Both the position numbers and the translations under genes were made by a program. Shown here piece after piece: positions 635-6,479 of a DNA stretch of 35,854 nucleotides. The notes beneath the pieces are model-generated. The model searched no databases and had not been told where the DNA came from. It worked only from the letters and a program-made list of their open reading frames with translations. Source of the DNA: Candidatus Saccharimonadota bacterium. Its GTDB lineage: Bacteria; Patescibacteriota; Saccharimonadia; Saccharimonadales; AWTP1-31. Each line of letters opens with the position of its first letter. Position 1 is the first letter of the stretch. The stretch lies in NCBI GenBank assembly GCA_026395435.1, contig JAPLYT010000014.1, forward strand, positions 1 through 35,854, in the 5' to 3' direction.

Positions 635-666
635 TGCAGATCACGCCATAATCAAAAGTCTAGCCA

Positions 667-691
667 ATAAAAAATTCCCAGCATAGCTAGG
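667..691 (-). terminator. Second terminator-like hairpin beyond the tRNA-Phe 3' copy
   Basis: On the minus strand a 6-bp stem CCTAGC/GCTGGG with loop TAT is followed by a run of T and then TTATTGG. It resembles the real tRNA-Phe terminator at 843-866 and lies just after the duplicated tRNA 3' end, so the tRNA end and its terminator seem to have been duplicated together. Confidence 0.5.
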
Positions 692-695
692 TACG

Positions 696-834
696 TTTTT
701 ATTGGTGGCTCCTCCCAGATCGCTCCACTTCGTTTCGCTCTTCCGCTCCGGCGTGCTCGGTGCTAGCACCTGTGCGCGTCCTCACTTCACCGCACTGGCC
801 GTTCGCTCCGCTCACTTTTCCAGTTCTCGTCTGG
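696..834 (-). repeat. tRNA-Phe 3'-end copy interrupted by palindromic insert
   Basis: Positions 696-719 repeat, without mismatch over 24 bp, the tRNA-Phe 3' end plus trailer at 869-892. The T-arm 5' half is recognisable near 791-799, so a roughly 71-bp insert (about 720-790) sits in the T-loop of this copy. The insert carries the perfect palindrome GGTGCTAGCACC (759-770). Its 53 bp at 738-790 align without gaps to 6263-6315 near tRNA-Leu(CAG) at 45 of 53 positions. An inverted T-arm-like sequence (820-834) closes the unit. It lies beyond the tRNA terminator, so it is probably little transcribed. Confidence 0.7.
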
Positions 835-842
835 ATACCAAT

Positions 843-866
843 AAAAAGACCCCAGCTTTGCTGAGG
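843..866 (-). terminator. Intrinsic terminator of tRNA-Phe
   Basis: A minus-strand stem of 7 bp (CCTCAGC/GCTGGGG, loop AAA) is followed by TCTTTTTATT. Flanking arms CCAATAAAAA and TTTTTATTGG extend the inverted repeat up to the CCA end of the tRNA, so the whole structure is nearly symmetric. Confidence 0.8.
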
Positions 867-875
867 TATTTTTAT

Positions 876-951
876 TGGTGGCTCCTCCCAGACTCGAACT
901 GGGGACACGCGGCTCTTCAAGCCGCTGCTCTACCAACTGAGCTAAAGAGCC
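876..951 (-). tRNA. tRNA-Phe(GAA)
   Basis: The 76-nt cloverleaf reads on the minus strand with acceptor GGCTCTT pairing AGGAGCC, D-arm GCTC/GAGC, anticodon stem GCGGC/GCCGC around loop TTGAAGA (anticodon GAA), T-arm CCCAG/CTGGG with loop TTCGAGT, discriminator A and an encoded CCA. A promoter lies at 973-1001 and a terminator at 843-866, so it appears to be a single-gene unit. Confidence 0.95.
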
Positions 952-972
952 ATGATTTGGTTTAACCCAATT

Positions 973-1001
973 ATCATACAGTATCAGGGGTGTTTTTTCA
1001 A
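973..1001 (-). promoter_or_regulatory. Promoter of tRNA-Phe
   Basis: On the minus strand TTGAAA and TATGAT are separated by 17 bases, with the tRNA 5' end 21 bases beyond the -10 box. The spacer contains ACCCCTGAT, which also occurs at the same place in the tRNA-Leu(GAG) promoter. The -35 box overlaps the stop codon of the upstream MazG-like gene. Confidence 0.75.
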
Positions 1002-1315
1002 ATCTGCTTCTTTTTGAAACGGTCTTTATCGCGTGTGCTCAGTTTATTTATAGCACGCTCCATAGCCGGGTCGAGGTCTATCCCTTGGCTGTTCGCTATG
1101 CATATAGCTGCATAGATAACGTCAGCCAGCTCGTCCTCCAGTAATTCATGATCTTCGCCCTCTTTCTTGGGCTTATCACCAAACTGGTGGTTCAAGATCC
1201 GTGCTACTTCGCCTACTTCTTCGGTGAGTCGGGCCAGAATACTCAGCGGAGCCCAATAGGGTACTTCGTATTGTTGGAGTTCGTCGTCGATCTGCTTTTG
1301 ATAGTCGTGTAGCAT
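998..1315 (-). CDS. MazG-like nucleotide pyrophosphohydrolase
   Basis: This 105-residue protein has the MazG-type metal-binding pattern EEVGE (about residues 32-36) and a downstream DELAD (about 60-64), the E-x-x-E and E/D-x-x-D signatures that coordinate Mg2+ in all-alpha NTP pyrophosphatases. Members hydrolyse (d)NTPs to monophosphates and pyrophosphate and help to clean the nucleotide pool. It is a single-domain short form, unlike E. coli MazG with two domains. It lies 17 bp downstream of the SPFH gene and probably shares its transcript; the Shine-Dalgarno before the ATG is weak. The substrate cannot be told from sequence. Confidence 0.85.
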   Translation of the reverse strand: MLHDYQKQIDDELQQYEVPYWAPLSILARLTEEVGEVARILNHQFGDKPKKEGEDHELLEDELADVIYAAICIANSQGIDLDPAMERAINKLSTRDKDRFKKKQI

Positions 1316-1332
1316 TACAGGACCGAGAAGTA

Positions 1333-2085
1333 CTATTTCTCTTTAGACATAAAGTCTTTAACGCTGCTGACGGTGTCCATGAATTGGCTTGGGAAGATGA
1401 TCGTGCTGTTCTTTTCGACGGCAATCTCACTCAGTACCTGGAGGTTACGAAGCTGTAATGCAATTGGGTGAGCATTAATGATATCAGCTGCTTCACCAAG
1501 CTTAGCGGCGCTGAGCTGTTCACCTTCGGCGGCAATGATTTTGGCTCGTTTCTCACGTTCTGCTTCGGCCTCTTTTGCCATTGCTCGTTGCATAGAGTCT
1601 GGGAGCTGAATATCTTTAAGTTCAACGGTGTCGACGAAAACACCCCATTGCTCCCCGGTCTTATCGAGGATTACTTTGATGGCATCGTTAATTTTGGCGG
1701 TATTGCTGAGCACTTCGTCTAATCCATTTTGACCAACAACATTACGGACAGTTGTTTGTGCGATTTGATAGATTGCAGACTGAACGTTTTCAATCTCAAC
1801 CACAGCTTTGACTGGATCGATGACATGGTAGTAAGCGACAGCAGCAACATCGATCGAGACGTTATCTTTGGTGATAATTTTCTGGCTCTGGATAGGAAGT
1901 GTTACTACACGCATACCGACCTTAATAAGACGATCCACGATTGGGATAATCACCCTGATCCCCGGCCCTTTTGCCGCCTGCACTTTTCCGAGTCGAAGGA
2001 TAACCGCACGTTCATATTGATCGATAATTTTCACGACATTGAAAAACACGATTACTCCAAGTACAACAATAATGATAAAACCCAT
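1333..2085 (-). CDS. SPFH/Band 7 (slipin/stomatin-like) membrane protein
   Basis: The 250-residue protein starts with one hydrophobic segment (about residues 2-20), followed by an SPFH/Band 7 domain with [10 protein letters not shown] and a conserved PIVDRL region, and then a charged alanine-rich helix ([14 protein letters not shown], about 168-183) typical of stomatin coiled coils. Such proteins oligomerise on the inner membrane face and organise membrane microdomains, often with an NfeD protease partner that is not seen here. A clear AAAGGAG (2092-2098) precedes the ATG, and a TATACT -10 box lies at 2123-2128, so this gene has a leader of roughly 30 nt, unlike many genes nearby. MazG follows in the same direction. 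Confidence 0.9.
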
Positions 2086-2165
2086 TACGAACTCCTTTGT
2101 AAATTTATTTCCTTATACACCTAGTATACTACTAAAATATAGTAAGCATATCGCTTGGGCTAGGG

Positions 2166-2171
2166 TATAAT
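2166..2171 (+). promoter_or_regulatory. TATAAT -10 box directly before the DUF1996 gene
   Basis: TATAAT ends 9 bases before the GTG at 2181, so transcription would begin at or next to the start codon. I see no good -35 box and no Shine-Dalgarno, which fits a leaderless mRNA. Confidence 0.55.
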
Positions 2172-2180
2172 CTATGTATA

Positions 2181-3644
2181 GTGAAGCTTACGTTTAGATC
2201 GACCAAGATAAAACTACCAAAAAAGTCTCGGAAACGAGATATTTTACTCGTTGTTAGTTTTGCCGCGATTGGTGGCTTGATACTAATCATTACCCATGCC
2301 AGTACCCCAGTGATTAGTGTCGAACCGGAGAACGGCGTCAAGGCTCCTTACGATTTAGCAGTAGCTGACGCTACGGCATCGGGTGGGTCTGCCGTACGTT
2401 TTGGTCAGAAAAAAACTACCGTAACCTGGAGAAATAGCAAATACAGTTTCGATACGACCGAAACTGGCAAATCTTCAGCTAATTTAGATCTAACTAAACT
2501 CATCATTCCACAGGTTCCTGATTTTAAAAATTTTCATTCAAACTATTCCAGTGTTCCGCCACTTTCCCTACCCCAAGGTCAAAATGGACAATTCCGAGCA
2601 ACCTGCGAACCGTCACATATTTCAAATGACGATGCGATTGTCTATCCGAATCAGCCGGGAGCCGCTCACGAACACTTATTTTACGGCAATACCGGTTCCA
2701 ACGCTTACAGTACCGCCGACAGTATCATAAATAGTGGCAGTAGCACCTGTGCCGGTCAAGAAGGAAACCGGACATCATATTGGTTCCCTACGATGTTAGA
2801 CGCCAGTGGCAATACCCGTATTCCAAATGAAATGTATCTGTACTATAAAGGTGAAGGAGTTAGTCTGCCTCCAGGTGGATTCAGCGCTTTGCCTCAAGGC
2901 ATTAAAATGTTGGCCGGTAACTCTAAAACAGCCGTTCCACAAATTCATGACTATAATAATGGATTTGCCTGTGGCGACCTTTTTTCTAACCCTACTAGCG
3001 ACATAATTCCGGCTGGTGAAACGCCATTACTTAGATCAGGTGATACAAATCCAACATCACGCGAAATACGATCTAGACGATGTAAGGGTGGCGAATCAAT
3101 AACAAGCCCATGGACAGGATCTGTATCTATAAGTAATCTCAAGCAAAAAGTTTTATACCCTCGCTGCTGGAATGGTGTAGGCATGAATCCTACAGACGTT
3201 ACGTATCCAGTCAATGGAGTATGTCCTGCTGGATCAAAAGTCTTTCCTGAAATATCAATATTATTTGTCTGGGAGCTAGCTGTAGGTGAAACTACCGATG
3301 GCTGGCATTTATCCTCCGACCATTTACACAATGCCGATGGCACTATGACAGAACTTCCAGGTGGTACAACACGCCACGGAGATTATATTGCCGGCTGGAA
3401 CAAAAAAATAATAGAATCTTGGACAAATAACTGCATAAACAATGATTGGAACTGCCAAGCAAATTATATTACAAACAGTACAATTTTTGATGGAGTCAAC
3501 TATGCCGCCACAACCACAAATGGATACCCATTCCTAAAACCAGCACCGCATCAAGGCAGATTCGCGACTCAATACCCTGCGCAGCCGTCGAATCCTTGTA
3601 TAGTCATTGCTGGTCAAAGCACTTCGAACTGCGATAATAAATAG
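2181..3644 (+). CDS. Membrane-anchored DUF1996 domain protein
   Basis: The 487-residue protein has a basic N-terminus (KIKLPKKSRKR), one membrane segment at about residues 22-40 and then an outer-facing part. From about residue 135 the sequence FRATCEPSH, HEHLFYGN, and later SSDHLHNADG and RHGDYIAGW match the DUF1996 pattern (PF09362), a domain of unknown function known from fungal and bacterial extracellular proteins. Several cysteines in the outer part could form disulfides. The start is GTG at 2181; the ATG at 2174 is out of frame. A TATAAT box 9 bases upstream suggests a leaderless transcript. The gene stands alone between divergent SPFH and convergent tRNA-Val units. Substrate and function are unknown. 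Confidence 0.8.
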   Translation: MKLTFRSTKIKLPKKSRKRDILLVVSFAAIGGLILIITHASTPVISVEPENGVKAPYDLAVADATASGGSAVRFGQKKTTVTWRNSKYSFDTTETGKSSANLDLTKLIIPQVPDFKNFHSNYSSVPPLSLPQGQNGQFRATCEPSHISNDDAIVYPNQPGAAHEHLFYGNTGSNAYSTADSIINSGSSTCAGQEGNRTSYWFPTMLDASGNTRIPNEMYLYYKGEGVSLPPGGFSALPQGIKMLAGNSKTAVPQIHDYNNGFACGDLFSNPTSDIIPAGETPLLRSGDTNPTSREIRSRRCKGGESITSPWTGSVSISNLKQKVLYPRCWNGVGMNPTDVTYPVNGVCPAGSKVFPEISILFVWELAVGETTDGWHLSSDHLHNADGTMTELPGGTTRHGDYIAGWNKKIIESWTNNCINNDWNCQANYITNSTIFDGVNYAATTTNGYPFLKPAPHQGRFATQYPAQPSNPCIVIAGQSTSNCDNK

Positions 3645-3652
3645 TATAAATT

Positions 3653-3734
3653 GGTGGGCGATGAGGGACTCGACCTACCTTCAGCAGGCCCGTCGCAACA
3701 TCTTTGCAAACTAGTTTGCAAGAGTTGTCTCTTA
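3653..3734 (-). repeat. Outer tRNA-Val 3'-end copy with 18-bp palindrome
   Basis: Positions 3653-3668 repeat the last bases of tRNA-Val (GGTGGGCGATGAGGGA on the plus strand), continuing into CTCGA of the T-loop. The rest of the 82-bp unit holds the perfect 18-bp palindrome TTGCAAACTAGTTTGCAA (about 3706-3723), centred on CTAG like the palindromes of the other tRNA-flanking units. The next copy begins exactly 82 bp further on. Confidence 0.65.
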
Positions 3735-3856
3735 GGTGGGCGATGAGGGAAACCGCACGACTGCACTCGTTCTCGAAGCAAGCTTCTGCGATCGAGCTTG
3801 CCGACCGAACCCCCGACCTCAAATGCTTTGCATTTATGCCGGGGGTTCAACTCCGT
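3735..3856 (-). repeat. Inner tRNA-Val 3'-end copy with T-loop insert
   Basis: Positions 3735-3750 repeat the tRNA-Val 3' end, 164 bp from the real one (3899-3914). The T-arm 5' half CGAACCCCCGACC appears at 3806-3818, so a 55-bp insert (3751-3805) interrupts the T-loop of this copy. The insert has the palindrome GAAGCAAGCTTC, and its 19 bp at 3772-3790 match the tRNA-Leu(CAG) insert at 6281-6299 with 2 differences. An inverted T-arm (CCGGGGGTTC, near 3839-3848) follows. Confidence 0.65.
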
Positions 3857-3860
3857 CGAC

Positions 3861-3898
3861 AAACAAAAAGCCCATCCTTTCGGATGGACTGTTTGTTT
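3861..3898 (-). terminator. Intrinsic terminator of the tRNA-Leu/tRNA-Val unit
   Basis: On the minus strand a 6-bp stem CCATCC/GGATGG with GAAA loop is followed by GCTTTTTGTTTG. As at tRNA-Phe, outer arms CAAACAAA and TTTGTTTG make a longer inverted repeat that begins in the tRNA CCA end. Confidence 0.85.
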
Positions 3899-3974
3899 GG
3901 TGGGCGATGAGGGACTCGAACCCCCGACCCCCTCGGTGTAAACGAGGTGCTCTAGCCAGCTGAGCTAATCGCCC
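3898..3974 (-). tRNA. tRNA-Val(TAC)
   Basis: The 77-nt minus-strand cloverleaf has acceptor GGGCGAT/ATCGCCC, D-arm GCTC/GAGC, anticodon stem CCTCG/CGAGG around TTTACAC (anticodon TAC), T-arm with loop TTCGAGT and an encoded CCA. It lies 25 bp downstream of tRNA-Leu(GAG) with no terminator between, so the two are cotranscribed. Confidence 0.95.
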
Positions 3975-3999
3975 AATCATGCTACTACTGTAACATATT

Positions 4000-4083
4000 T
4001 GGTGCGCGAGAGAGGACTTGAACCTCCACGCCTTGCGGCACTAGTCCCTCAGACTAGCGTGTCTACCATTCCACCACTCGCGC
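4000..4083 (-). tRNA. tRNA-Leu(GAG)
   Basis: This 84-nt class II tRNA has acceptor GCGCGAG/CTCGCGC, anticodon stem CTAGT/ACTAG around CTGAGGG (anticodon GAG), a long variable arm (GTGCCGCAAGGCGT), T-arm GGAGG/CCTCT with loop TTCAAGT and an encoded CCA. It is first in a two-tRNA unit with tRNA-Val, transcribed from the promoter at 4165-4193. Confidence 0.94.
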
Positions 4084-4100
4084 ACAAATTTTTCTTTCAC

Positions 4101-4141
4101 GCTGGCGTGTCTACGATTATCCGTCGAAGCACCACTTGCGC
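4101..4141 (-). repeat. Partial 5'-half copy of tRNA-Leu(GAG) in its own leader
   Basis: On the minus strand GCGCAAGTGGTG and GTAGACACGC repeat the start and D-arm of tRNA-Leu(GAG) 58 bp upstream of the real gene. About 15 bases replace the original D-loop segment between them. It lies between promoter and tRNA, so unlike the 3' copies it should be transcribed and must be removed by 5' processing. Confidence 0.55.
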
Positions 4142-4164
4142 ATATCTTGTAAAAGAACCCTACA

Positions 4165-4193
4165 ATAGTACTTCATCAGGGGTAAAAACTCAA
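4165..4193 (-). promoter_or_regulatory. Promoter of the tRNA-Leu(GAG)/tRNA-Val unit
   Basis: Minus-strand TTGAGT and TACTAT are 17 bases apart, placing the transcription start near 4158, about 75 bases before the tRNA. The spacer contains ACCCCTGAT as in the tRNA-Phe promoter. Confidence 0.75.
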
Positions 4194-4196
4194 GCC

Positions 4197-4490
4197 CTAT
4201 CGCTTTTTAGCTGAGCGAGTTTTTGTGCGTGAAACTTTTTTGGTGTATCGCTCGGCAAATGAAGATAAGCCACGGAATGATACGAATACCAGCATCAGGT
4301 TGATCGGCAACGCAACGTAGGCTTTGACATGAATCTGGTATACAACCAAAAGACTGGCCCCCAAGATAGTATCCAACTCATAGAGTGGTGAAGAGTTCTT
4401 CCAGCGACCGGATGATGTTCTGTATAGCCCGAATACAATGCATAGCATGCCGACAATTCCAGCAATGACATAAGGATCTTGAAAGTTCAT
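4197..4490 (-). CDS. Small CBU_0592-like membrane protein
   Basis: The 97-residue protein has about three hydrophobic segments (roughly residues 8-23, 42-57 and 60-75) and a very basic tail (KKVSRTKTRSAKKR). The pattern with GIVGMLCIVFGLYR and LDTILGASLLVVYQ resembles the CBU_0592-like membrane family, whose function is unknown. It begins 3 bp after the stop of the FAD-linked dehydrogenase and has AAGGA about 8 bases before its ATG, so it is the second gene of that operon. Its end abuts the promoter of the tRNA-Leu/Val unit. Confidence 0.65.
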   Translation of the reverse strand: MNFQDPYVIAGIVGMLCIVFGLYRTSSGRWKNSSPLYELDTILGASLLVVYQIHVKAYVALPINLMLVFVSFRGLSSFAERYTKKVSRTKTRSAKKR

Positions 4491-4493
4491 GTG

Positions 4494-6131
4494 CTAGGTC
4501 CTTGGTAAATGGTGACCGAGATGCTCCATAGAGTACTCGTGACGCAAAAGTGGCTTAACATCATCTTGAGTGACATTAATTTTAACACCAGGGTTGAGCG
4601 TGCCGTAAGGGTCGAAAATTAGTTTAACCTTTTGAAAGACCGTATACACTGCTTCACCATAAAGTTGTTTGAGATAGGGCGCCCGCAGACGGCCGTCGTT
4701 ATGCTCACCACTGGTACTTCCGCCCATACCAATCACCATTGCGTAGTATTCGTCGATAATCTTGAACACTTTTTGACGATCTCCTACCTGAGATAAATCG
4801 AGAAATGGCTGCATATGTAGGTTTGCGTTACCGGCATGGCCCCAGATCGCTATCTTGAGACCATATTTATCAAATAGTTCGTAGCAGGCTTTGATATAGT
4901 CATGGAATTTATCGCTCGGCACGATACCATCTTCGATGATTGGCAATGCTTTGATGTTCCCTTCACTGTGAGATACGACCGCAGCAGCACTGTGGCGAAT
5001 CCGCCATAATTCTTCTTTGGCTTCTTCTTCGGTTTCAAGCACATAGGTAACATTGGCTTTTGTCAGAATCTTGGTGACTCGTTTGGCCATTTTCTTTTGG
5101 ACGCGAGCATTGGCATTATCGAATTCTATGAGCACGATTAGCTTATGGAATGGCTTAGTGACAACACCCTTTAACTGATTAGGGTGGTGTTCGTCGATAA
5201 ATTTGAGCAGGTTTTCATCGACGAGTTCCATAGCACTGGGCGTTTCAGGGAGTTTTTTGATCTCTTGAATGACCGATTCAACAACTTGCAGATCTTCGAA
5301 GAAAGCAGCAATTAATGTAGTCTCTGAATTATGCGGAACCGTCTTGATGGTCGCTTCAGTTACGATTCCGAGTGTCCCCTGTGATCCTATTAAAAGTGGC
5401 GTCAAGTCGAATGAGCCATCTTTACGCTTAACATCAGCGAGATCGTATCCGGCGGAGTTTTTGCTGACGTTTAGGTTCATGCCATCGATTATTTTCTTGT
5501 TATCTTCGAGCAGGCCGTCGAGTGCCCGATACAATTCACCTTCGAGCGTCGTGAGCCCTTTTTTCTTGCTCAGTTCGCGCTTAGTCAGTCGTTTTGTCTC
5601 GATAACTTCACCGTTTGCCAGTACGACGCGCAGGCTTTTGACAAAGTCTCGAGTATCGCCATATTTAAATGTTTTTTCACCACTCGCGTTATTGGCTATA
5701 GCGCCTCCAACCGTACTGTAGGCCATCGAAGATGGATATGGTGGCAGGAATCTACCATGCGTATGAAGTGTTTGCTGTAAGGTGCCGTAGTTGATTCCTG
5801 GTTCGATAACTACATCGCCTGATTTGCCGTCAAACTCGAGGATACGATTCATATGGGCTGGGAATACCAGTACAGCACCACTACCTACCGCAGCACTTCC
5901 TTGGTCGGTACCGCTACCACGAGCTGTGATAGGGATCACACGGCCTCGCTCTGCTAATTGCCAAGTAAAGCGAGCAACTTTGCGGACGTCAGATTCAGAT
6001 CGTGGATAGACGATGATCGAAGGGGTGACAGTAAACACGCCGCCATCAGTCGAAAAATACTTCCGCAGAGCAGGTGTATGCATCACTTCGCCGCTTAAAT
6101 GTTCTTGAAGATATTGCGCAACTTTACTCAT
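4494..6131 (-). CDS. FAD-linked dehydrogenase, D-lactate/glycolate dehydrogenase type
   Basis: This 545-residue protein shows the two domains of the GlcD/Dld-like family. An N-terminal PCMH-type FAD domain (about residues 35-220) has ITARGSGTDQGS and the GGAIANNASGEKTFKYGDT segment that binds the FAD pyrophosphate. The C-terminal oxidase domain (about 270-530) has the conserved WGHAGNANLHMQPF and SGEHNDGR segments around the substrate site. Such flavoenzymes oxidise 2-hydroxy acids such as D-lactate and pass electrons to quinone or another acceptor. No iron-sulfur domain is fused. In a fermentative small genome it may recycle lactate, but the substrate cannot be read from sequence. The small membrane protein follows at once. 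Confidence 0.85.
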   Translation of the reverse strand: MSKVAQYLQEHLSGEVMHTPALRKYFSTDGGVFTVTPSIIVYPRSESDVRKVARFTWQLAERGRVIPITARGSGTDQGSAAVGSGAVLVFPAHMNRILEFDGKSGDVVIEPGINYGTLQQTLHTHGRFLPPYPSSMAYSTVGGAIANNASGEKTFKYGDTRDFVKSLRVVLANGEVIETKRLTKRELSKKKGLTTLEGELYRALDGLLEDNKKIIDGMNLNVSKNSAGYDLADVKRKDGSFDLTPLLIGSQGTLGIVTEATIKTVPHNSETTLIAAFFEDLQVVESVIQEIKKLPETPSAMELVDENLLKFIDEHHPNQLKGVVTKPFHKLIVLIEFDNANARVQKKMAKRVTKILTKANVTYVLETEEEAKEELWRIRHSAAAVVSHSEGNIKALPIIEDGIVPSDKFHDYIKACYELFDKYGLKIAIWGHAGNANLHMQPFLDLSQVGDRQKVFKIIDEYYAMVIGMGGSTSGEHNDGRLRAPYLKQLYGEAVYTVFQKVKLIFDPYGTLNPGVKINVTQDDVKPLLRHEYSMEHLGHHLPRT

Positions 6132-6214
6132 GAATGTTTATTCCCGTACCCTTAAAGCGTTAGTATTTCTTGTTACTATAATAACACAGTCGTTACATGT
6201 ATATCGTCATGTTT

Positions 6215-6345
6215 TGGTGTTGTAGAGAGGACTATCGCACATTTTTGACTACGTCAAAAACACTCTTCCGTTGCGGCATGCTCGTAGCTAGCTTCTGCGC
6301 GCGTCCTCACTTCACGAACCTCCACCCTTCGGGTTTGGAGATTCT
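6215..6345 (-). repeat. tRNA-Leu(CAG) 3'-end copy interrupted by palindromic insert
   Basis: Positions 6215-6233 repeat the tRNA-Leu(CAG) 3' end (6394-6412) with 2 mismatches, 179 bp away. The T-arm 5' half CGAACCTCCACC appears at 6315-6326, so 81 bp (6234-6314) interrupt the T-loop of this copy. The insert shares 45 of 53 bases (6263-6315) with the insert near tRNA-Phe, including a CTAG-centred palindrome, and carries an extra hairpin TTTTTGAC-TAC-GTCAAAAA (6242-6260). An inverted T-arm stretch (TTTGGAGATT, 6334-6343) follows. Confidence 0.7.
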
Positions 6346-6360
6346 AGCCCAAGTCCAATT

Positions 6361-6386
6361 TAAAAAGCCATCTCTTTGGATGGCTC
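6361..6386 (-). terminator. Intrinsic terminator of tRNA-Leu(CAG)
   Basis: On the minus strand a 7-bp stem AGCCATC/GATGGCT is followed by TTTTTAAATTGG. Outer arms CCAATTT/AAATTGG extend the inverted repeat into the CCA end of the tRNA. Confidence 0.8.
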
Positions 6387-6393
6387 TTCAAAT

Positions 6394-6479
6394 TGGTGCC
6401 GTAGAGAGGACTTGAACCTCCACGTCCTTGCGAACACTACGTCCTGAACGTAGCGCGTCTACCATTCCGCCACTACGGC
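6394..6479 (-). tRNA. tRNA-Leu(CAG)
   Basis: The 86-nt class II tRNA has acceptor GCCGTAG/CTACGGC, anticodon stem CTACG/CGTAG around TTCAGGA (anticodon CAG), a long variable arm, T-arm GGAGG with loop TTCAAGT and an encoded CCA. It is a single-gene unit with its own promoter and terminator. Confidence 0.94.

Follow-up and report, generated by a model that had tools for sequence, protein, structure and literature searches.

The window, a 35.9-kb stretch of the 938-kb genome of a Candidatus Saccharimonadota bacterium (G000; 17 contigs, 36 tRNAs), contains three related non-coding units, located behind the genes for tRNA-Phe, tRNA-Val and tRNA-Leu(CAG). Each of them has a core of about 60 nt with three covarying helices, accompanied by copies of parts of the tRNA it follows. 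Such cores are found at 30 kinds of tRNA in 23 genomes. They probably belong to a spreading element of tRNA 3' ends. That they form a family of short (~150–180 bp) non-coding structured elements, which insert at tRNA gene 3' ends of Saccharibacteria in one orientation and are moved in trans, is a reading which we favor with some reserve. A sequence-only reading of the window had proposed a mobile or spreading element with the T-arm of the tRNA as its target. The spread is apparent from the many tRNAs involved, the switched flanks and the turnover described below, while movement itself we infer, as no enzyme was found.

Three units in the window

Cores were detected with covariance models, whose E-values are rough. 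Model R1 was trained on G000. As this is the genome which contains the window, we have checked the results with model R3, trained on other genomes only, although its training rows were first gathered with R1. The features of the three loci are the following (scores and rough E-values correspond to R3):

876..951, minus strand: tRNA-Phe(GAA), anchor gene (ARAGORN; Rfam tRNA model)
838..878, minus strand: terminator palindrome CCAATAAAAA...TTTTTATTGG, pairs back to the CCA of tRNA-Phe
820..834, minus strand: inverted copy of the Phe T-arm (CCAGACGAGAACTGG), from the sequence and the own-tRNA test over 66 elements
790..798, minus strand: copy of the Phe T-stem 5' strand (CCAGT), from the sequence
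736..796, minus strand: structured core, Phe copy (52.3 bits, E 2.2e-11)
703..719, minus strand: duplicated Phe 3' end TCTGGGAGGAGCCACCA (T3 strand, acceptor strand, CCA), 17/17 identical
664..705, minus strand: second terminator palindrome of the Phe locus
3898..3974, minus strand: tRNA-Val(TAC), anchor gene (ARAGORN)
3860..3900, minus strand: terminator palindrome, pairs back to the CCA of tRNA-Val
3838..3857, minus strand: inverted copy of the Val T-arm
3806..3817, minus strand: copy of the Val T-stem 5' strand GTCGGGGGTTCG
3752..3811, minus strand: structured core, Val copy (66.7 bits, E 4.7e-15)
3735..3752, minus strand: duplicated Val 3' end TTTCCCTCATCGCCCACC
3652..3673, minus strand: further (third) copy of the Val 3' end, past the Val unit; no core found there
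6394..6479, minus strand: tRNA-Leu(CAG), anchor gene (ARAGORN)
6355..6396, minus strand: terminator palindrome, pairs back to the CCA of tRNA-Leu(CAG)
6336..6356, minus strand: inverted copy of the Leu T-arm, partly changed
6316..6325, minus strand: copy of the Leu T-stem 5' strand GTGGAGGTTC
6261..6320, minus strand: structured core, Leu copy (52.7 bits, E 1.8e-11)
6238..6262, minus strand: right-end hairpin module TGTTTTTGAC-GTA-GTCAAAAATGTG of the Leu locus; the same module type is found behind tRNA-Leu(TAA) of G016 (L079)
6215..6233, minus strand: duplicated Leu 3' end AGTCCTCTCTACAACACCA, 2 changes

All three loci have the same order on the minus strand: CCA end of the tRNA, terminator palindrome, inverted T-arm, short loop, T-stem 5' copy, insert, T3 strand, acceptor 3' strand and CCA. 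The outer arms of the palindromes are the part which pairs with the preceding tRNA's own CCA.

The second 3' end behind each tRNA (Phe 703–719, Val 3735–3752, LeuCAG 6215–6233) and the lack of an integrase in the window had already been pointed out. Both observations are correct, and the units are non-coding. The inserts are indeed related. The Phe (738–790) and Leu (6263–6315) inserts agree at 45 of 53 positions without gaps, while the best pair in the shuffled first 7.5 kb reaches 31–32 of 53; Val (3772–3790) is identical to Leu at 17 of 19 positions. When the window is scanned with a model made from the copies of other genomes, just the three inserts are recovered, with no further match up to E=5. 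Other aspects of the earlier description need to be modified. The inserts lie at the described positions, but the conserved unit is the core of about 60 nt (736–796, 3752–3811, 6261–6320), and its conserved feature is the folded structure rather than the sequence. The duplicated tRNA ends and the terminators had been recognized, but not the inverted T-arm nor the pairing of the terminator palindromes with the CCA. Both the inverted T-arm and a dedicated terminator are part of the unit.

The window also has a degenerate copy of a tRNA-Leu 5' half (GCGCAAGTGGTGC..ATCGTAGACACGC) at 4084–4150 of the minus strand, just upstream of tRNA-Leu(GAG).

Core structure and copies of the local tRNA

Fourteen cores, aligned without gaps, share three helices with 87.5% of the cells paired; changes on both sides of a pair amount to 48, compared with 16.7 in shuffled data. 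The same result is obtained with 108 distinct cores: 407 cells are changed on both sides (136 in shuffles) and the covariation score is 0.716 (0.228 in shuffles). Controls with slid partners reach at most 0.12. Covariation is unchanged when G000 is left out. The loops are also conserved: NNCGCA is opposite GAGNA, with one more covarying pair inside, and the apical loop is C(UN)G or U(UN)A. The apical 12-nt hairpin belongs to a small repertoire (GAAGCTTGCTTC, GGAGTTTACTCC, GATGCTTGCATC and others) and is swapped as a block between near-identical cores, with its pairing kept, as if one arm had templated the other.

The frequency of G-U pairs is 4.2% in the core helices and 5–6% in tRNA stems of the same genomes. 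We have rejected the scarcity of G-U pairs as proof of folding at the DNA level, because these tRNA stems have an equally low rate.

A divergent core subtype (GTACAGGAYTGAACGTGCAG..GAAnAAGTGAAATCCGTGCAAGCGAAGC), outside model R1, is present behind Tyr, Arg-GCG and Ser-CGA of G000 (L006, L010). The family is thus probably larger than our counts.

The relation between core and tRNA is very regular. When a tRNA is found within 110 nt upstream of a core, it is on the same strand in all 66 cases. From the CCA to the core, the distance is mostly 62–105 nt, and shorter in a few cases. According to a permutation test with 66 elements of 23 genomes and 30 tRNA kinds, the copies are specific for the local tRNA: The score of the T3+acceptor copy is 11.5/14 with its own tRNA and 5.4 with other tRNAs, the corresponding values being 9.1 and 6.5 for the inverted T-arm, and 6.8 and 4.5 for the T5 copy. 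Each of the three own-tRNA scores is above all 2000 permutations. The acceptor part is not mirrored. The core is followed by the T3+acceptor copy of its own tRNA in 55 of the 66 elements, which is the displaced 3' end found in integrative elements at tRNA sites.

In the single units L226–L228, an ordinary-looking trailer follows the second CCA. The duplicated part may therefore be refined to 18–19 bp, from nucleotide 58/59 of the T-loop to CCA, and the second copy would be the original tRNA end. Units occur also in tandem arrays. We have considered that new units might be proximal to the tRNA and older ones decayed, but core scores in the arrays show no such gradient.

Left modules are exchanged among Ser tRNAs. 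A larger left module (CCA-GAATGACAGATCAGCC...ATTCTGG) is common to tRNA-fMet of G061 (L208) and to a displaced tRNA-Gly end of G038 (L084, ~2300–2530). These genomes belong to different families, and the T-arm copies are host-specific.

The units might also be cis-acting structured RNAs which regulate tRNA synthesis. T-arm copies would pair alternatively, as in an attenuator, and change the folding or processing of read-through transcripts. Such a role agrees with the four segments, which are complementary to one another and fit the local tRNA, with the strand, always that of the tRNA, and with the strong covariation. Nevertheless, in 58 of the 66 elements the tRNA is separated from the core by a T-run or terminator, so the core is probably seldom transcribed with the tRNA. 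Besides, it is not obvious what the copy of the acceptor strand and CCA would do in a switch, and presence is patchy, with congeners that have different subtypes or none. There is no Rfam match either: Over the inserts, just chance-level matches below the gathering score were found at E up to 5. An RNA regulator thus seems unlikely.

Distribution, turnover and neighboring islands

The sequence-only reading had suggested extracting and aligning the DNA downstream of every tRNA and building a covariance model. In G000 this places the core behind about a dozen tRNAs besides the three of the window. The model gives 20 core matches, mostly right behind tRNAs. Cores were seen behind Lys-TTT, Arg-TCG and Arg-GCG (twice each), Tyr, Ser-GCT, Ser-CGA, Ser-GGA, Val, Asp, Ala, Met, Gly, Phe and Leu-CAG. 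A 3'-end copy is present within 350 nt behind 13 of the 36 tRNAs (the upstream control gives 1). The remaining G000 tRNAs have neither core nor terminator palindrome of this kind, and several of them have an integrated island directly behind. In G001, from the same family, none of the 22 tRNAs has a 3'-end copy.

Most of the genomes we have compared are fragmented assemblies. The core is found in 28 of 61 relatives, in 57 of 295 sampled genomes of class Saccharimonadia and in 9 of 381 genomes drawn from the phylum, nearly all of them within Saccharimonadia. Carriers include Candidatus Saccharimonadia bacterium MYJ.17 and Candidatus Saccharibacteria viral-cat_48_13. The number of cores per genome ranges from 0 to more than 20, even within one genus: 26 in G029, 9 in G061 and 2 in G053. 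The exact element pattern had no matches in viral contigs, and matches in phages and plasmids were confined to the tRNA part.

Cores are gained, lost and exchanged between congeners. For example, subtype GGGATTGAGCTTCACGC...GCCACGATGTC follows tRNA-Gln in G029, and the congener G061 has it at tRNA-Arg and tRNA-Ser, each copy preceding the 3' end of its own tRNA. Congeners differ in core subtype at Ser-GGA, Arg-TCT and Arg-CCT, and a unit is present at Lys-CTT in G029 but missing from that tRNA in G053. In total, 29 pairs of cores at different tRNAs are at least 80% identical, although in a few of these pairs both members are one and the same place; one of the 29 joins the Phe core of the window and a core at tRNA-Lys of G012. 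Since subtypes recur at different tRNAs with switched flanks, the copies do not trace to one recent tandem duplication.

A reading with no element at all would invoke gene conversion and tandem duplication acting locally on the 3' ends of tRNAs, together with hairpins that arose by convergence. It would account for the tandem units, the near-identical neighbors and the swapping of left modules by Ser tRNAs. On the other hand, the core covaries, has no source in any tRNA and is common to several families of the class, and the window copies are detected with the model from other genomes at E values, rough as they are, of about 1e-11 to 1e-15. This explanation is largely refuted and we consider it extremely improbable.

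Islands with large serine recombinases are located directly behind tRNA-Leu(TAG), Glu(CTC) and Pro(TGG) of G000, at these sites:

C15:49322-67700 (L027, L183)
C6:~65990 (L034)
C10:~33770 (L014)

The C-terminal frame of the recombinase reaches up to or into the tRNA. At tRNA-Leu(TAG), the tRNA and its older core unit are kept apart by an island of 18 kb. The presence of these islands and the displaced tRNA ends might suggest that the units are attL/attR scars of integrase-borne islands with a T-loop crossover, later deleted. We find this quite improbable: A scar should have the end of a single island family, at a single tRNA, but one covarying core is found at 30 tRNA kinds. Besides, the islands of G000 are inserted on the tRNA side of an older core unit, and the island junctions we have read have no core.

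Genes are found between cores in L131, L182, L084 and L178. According to inspection by eye, genes between core units include a protease-like gene (211 aa) behind Arg-TCG of G000 (L009/L054), an APH-like gene in G055 (L131), a DUF4145-like gene in G038 (L084) and a gene similar to ribosome-protection tetracycline resistance in G009 (L192). The same hot spots also have gene insertions of another type, namely single small genes, GNAT-, Nudix- or NADAR-like by eye, in L073, L076, L081, L137 and L188. Here the tRNA has an ordinary trailer, which is followed by the gene and then by the displaced 3' end of that tRNA with a core unit. Gene cassettes ending in a core were considered, but found no support in the loci read: In L073, L081, L137 and L188 the genes are inserted upstream of a complete core unit, and none of these loci has a core at the end of the gene part.

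Proposed mechanism and comparison with known systems

In the mechanism we propose, the inserted unit would leave the tRNA complete and supply, after its CCA, the terminator palindrome, the inverted T-arm, the 5' half of the T-stem and the core, ending against the 18–19 bp tRNA duplication. Insertion should not harm the tRNA, since the element carries, ahead of its own sequence, the complete end of a tRNA and a terminator. Units could pile up in tandem at one tRNA. The core, folded as a single strand like attC, would recombine at the T-arm, and the unit would be non-autonomous, with the enzyme supplied in trans. Movement in trans by an enzyme, as folded DNA, is what we consider the most likely mechanism, with clear reserve. 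The full picture is likewise tentative, a possibility somewhat below even odds: cassettes without genes would use a folded-strand recombination site to dock on the T-arms of tRNAs, restore the 3' end and terminator at each insertion, and be moved by a recombinase.

Genes for tRNA are a classic landing site of mobile DNA. To our knowledge, the elements found there bring their own integrase; our units contain neither integrase nor cargo. In genomic islands and tycheposons the crossover is in the T-loop, the tRNA 3' end is restored and a displaced 3' end remains at the far side. These features are shared by our units, which differ in being shorter than 200 bp and non-coding, with an inverted T-arm and one core at 30 tRNA kinds. 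REP sequences are short, non-autonomous hairpin repeats, in which they resemble our units. REPs are not known to be bound to tRNAs or to carry copies of host genes, and the Y1 genes of REP/RAYT systems are absent from G000 and G012. The rtT repeats of Escherichia coli tyrT are also partial copies of a tRNA 3' end behind the gene. As far as we know, they are limited to one locus, with no structured core shared with other tRNAs, while our core is common to many tRNAs.

Integrons are also among the closest known systems, and their attC sites are recognized as a folded single strand (PMC2727003). The constant strand, the constant joint and the conservation of structure above sequence have led us to compare our cores with attC. 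By this analogy, the core may act as a folded single-strand recombination site and the T-arm as its docking site. Further common points are tandem units at a fixed docking site and an imperfect hairpin with internal loops. There are also clear differences: Our units have no R boxes (RYYYAAC and GTTRRRY together are found in 0 of 106 cores), no gene and no extra tyrosine recombinase, and their docking site is a tRNA T-arm. G000, G012 and G029 have a single PF00589 protein each, without a scan for IntI-specific features. Practically every relative has one such protein, with or without cores, as expected of Xer. We have therefore rejected membership in integrons.

Casposons duplicate their target on insertion, which takes place beside the 3' ends of tRNAs (PMC4046053). 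Our units differ in their lack of Cas1 and in a longer overlap with the tRNA. Transposition with an 18–19 bp target duplication, due to staggered cuts in the T-loop and behind CCA, as in casposases or CRISPR adaptation, would dispense with a folded-site recombinase. The constant duplicated stretch, from T-loop to CCA, and the clean cases L226–L228 are in its favor. Nevertheless, carriers have no Cas1, no terminal inverted repeats were seen by eye, without a systematic search, between left and right ends, and the inverted T-arm and T5 copies are not explained. We regard this alternative as rather unlikely.

Several results also weigh against our main reading. Cas1 is found in only 1 of 61 relatives (G054), which has no core. 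Reverse transcriptase is absent from the richest carriers (G000, G012 and G029). Y1 transposase is present in 17 of the 61 relatives, including G029, and absent from G000 and G012. We have rejected these three enzymes as movers, since over the 61 genomes none of them matches the richest carriers, and no extra tyrosine recombinase is found there either. The large serine recombinases of the islands at these tRNAs are a candidate. G-U frequency gives no separation of DNA from RNA folding, the distal units of arrays show no clear excess of decay, and a simple target duplication does not explain the host-specific T5 and inverted T-arm copies. Sister genomes have no core or other subtypes at the same tRNA, but no strain pair among the genomes compared has a clean filled and empty site at base resolution.

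In summary, the element appears to match no mobile-element or RNA family tested here. We have found no published description of it in the literature searched, with limited coverage of subscription journals. It accounts for the partial tRNA repeats behind these tRNA genes. The covariance model provides a means to search for the enzyme in an episymbiotic lineage where genetics is hard. If our proposal is true, these units are a new class of mobile element in Saccharibacteria: A gene-less, structure-conserved element over up to half of the tRNA genes in bacteria with tiny genomes would be a new use of tRNA genes.

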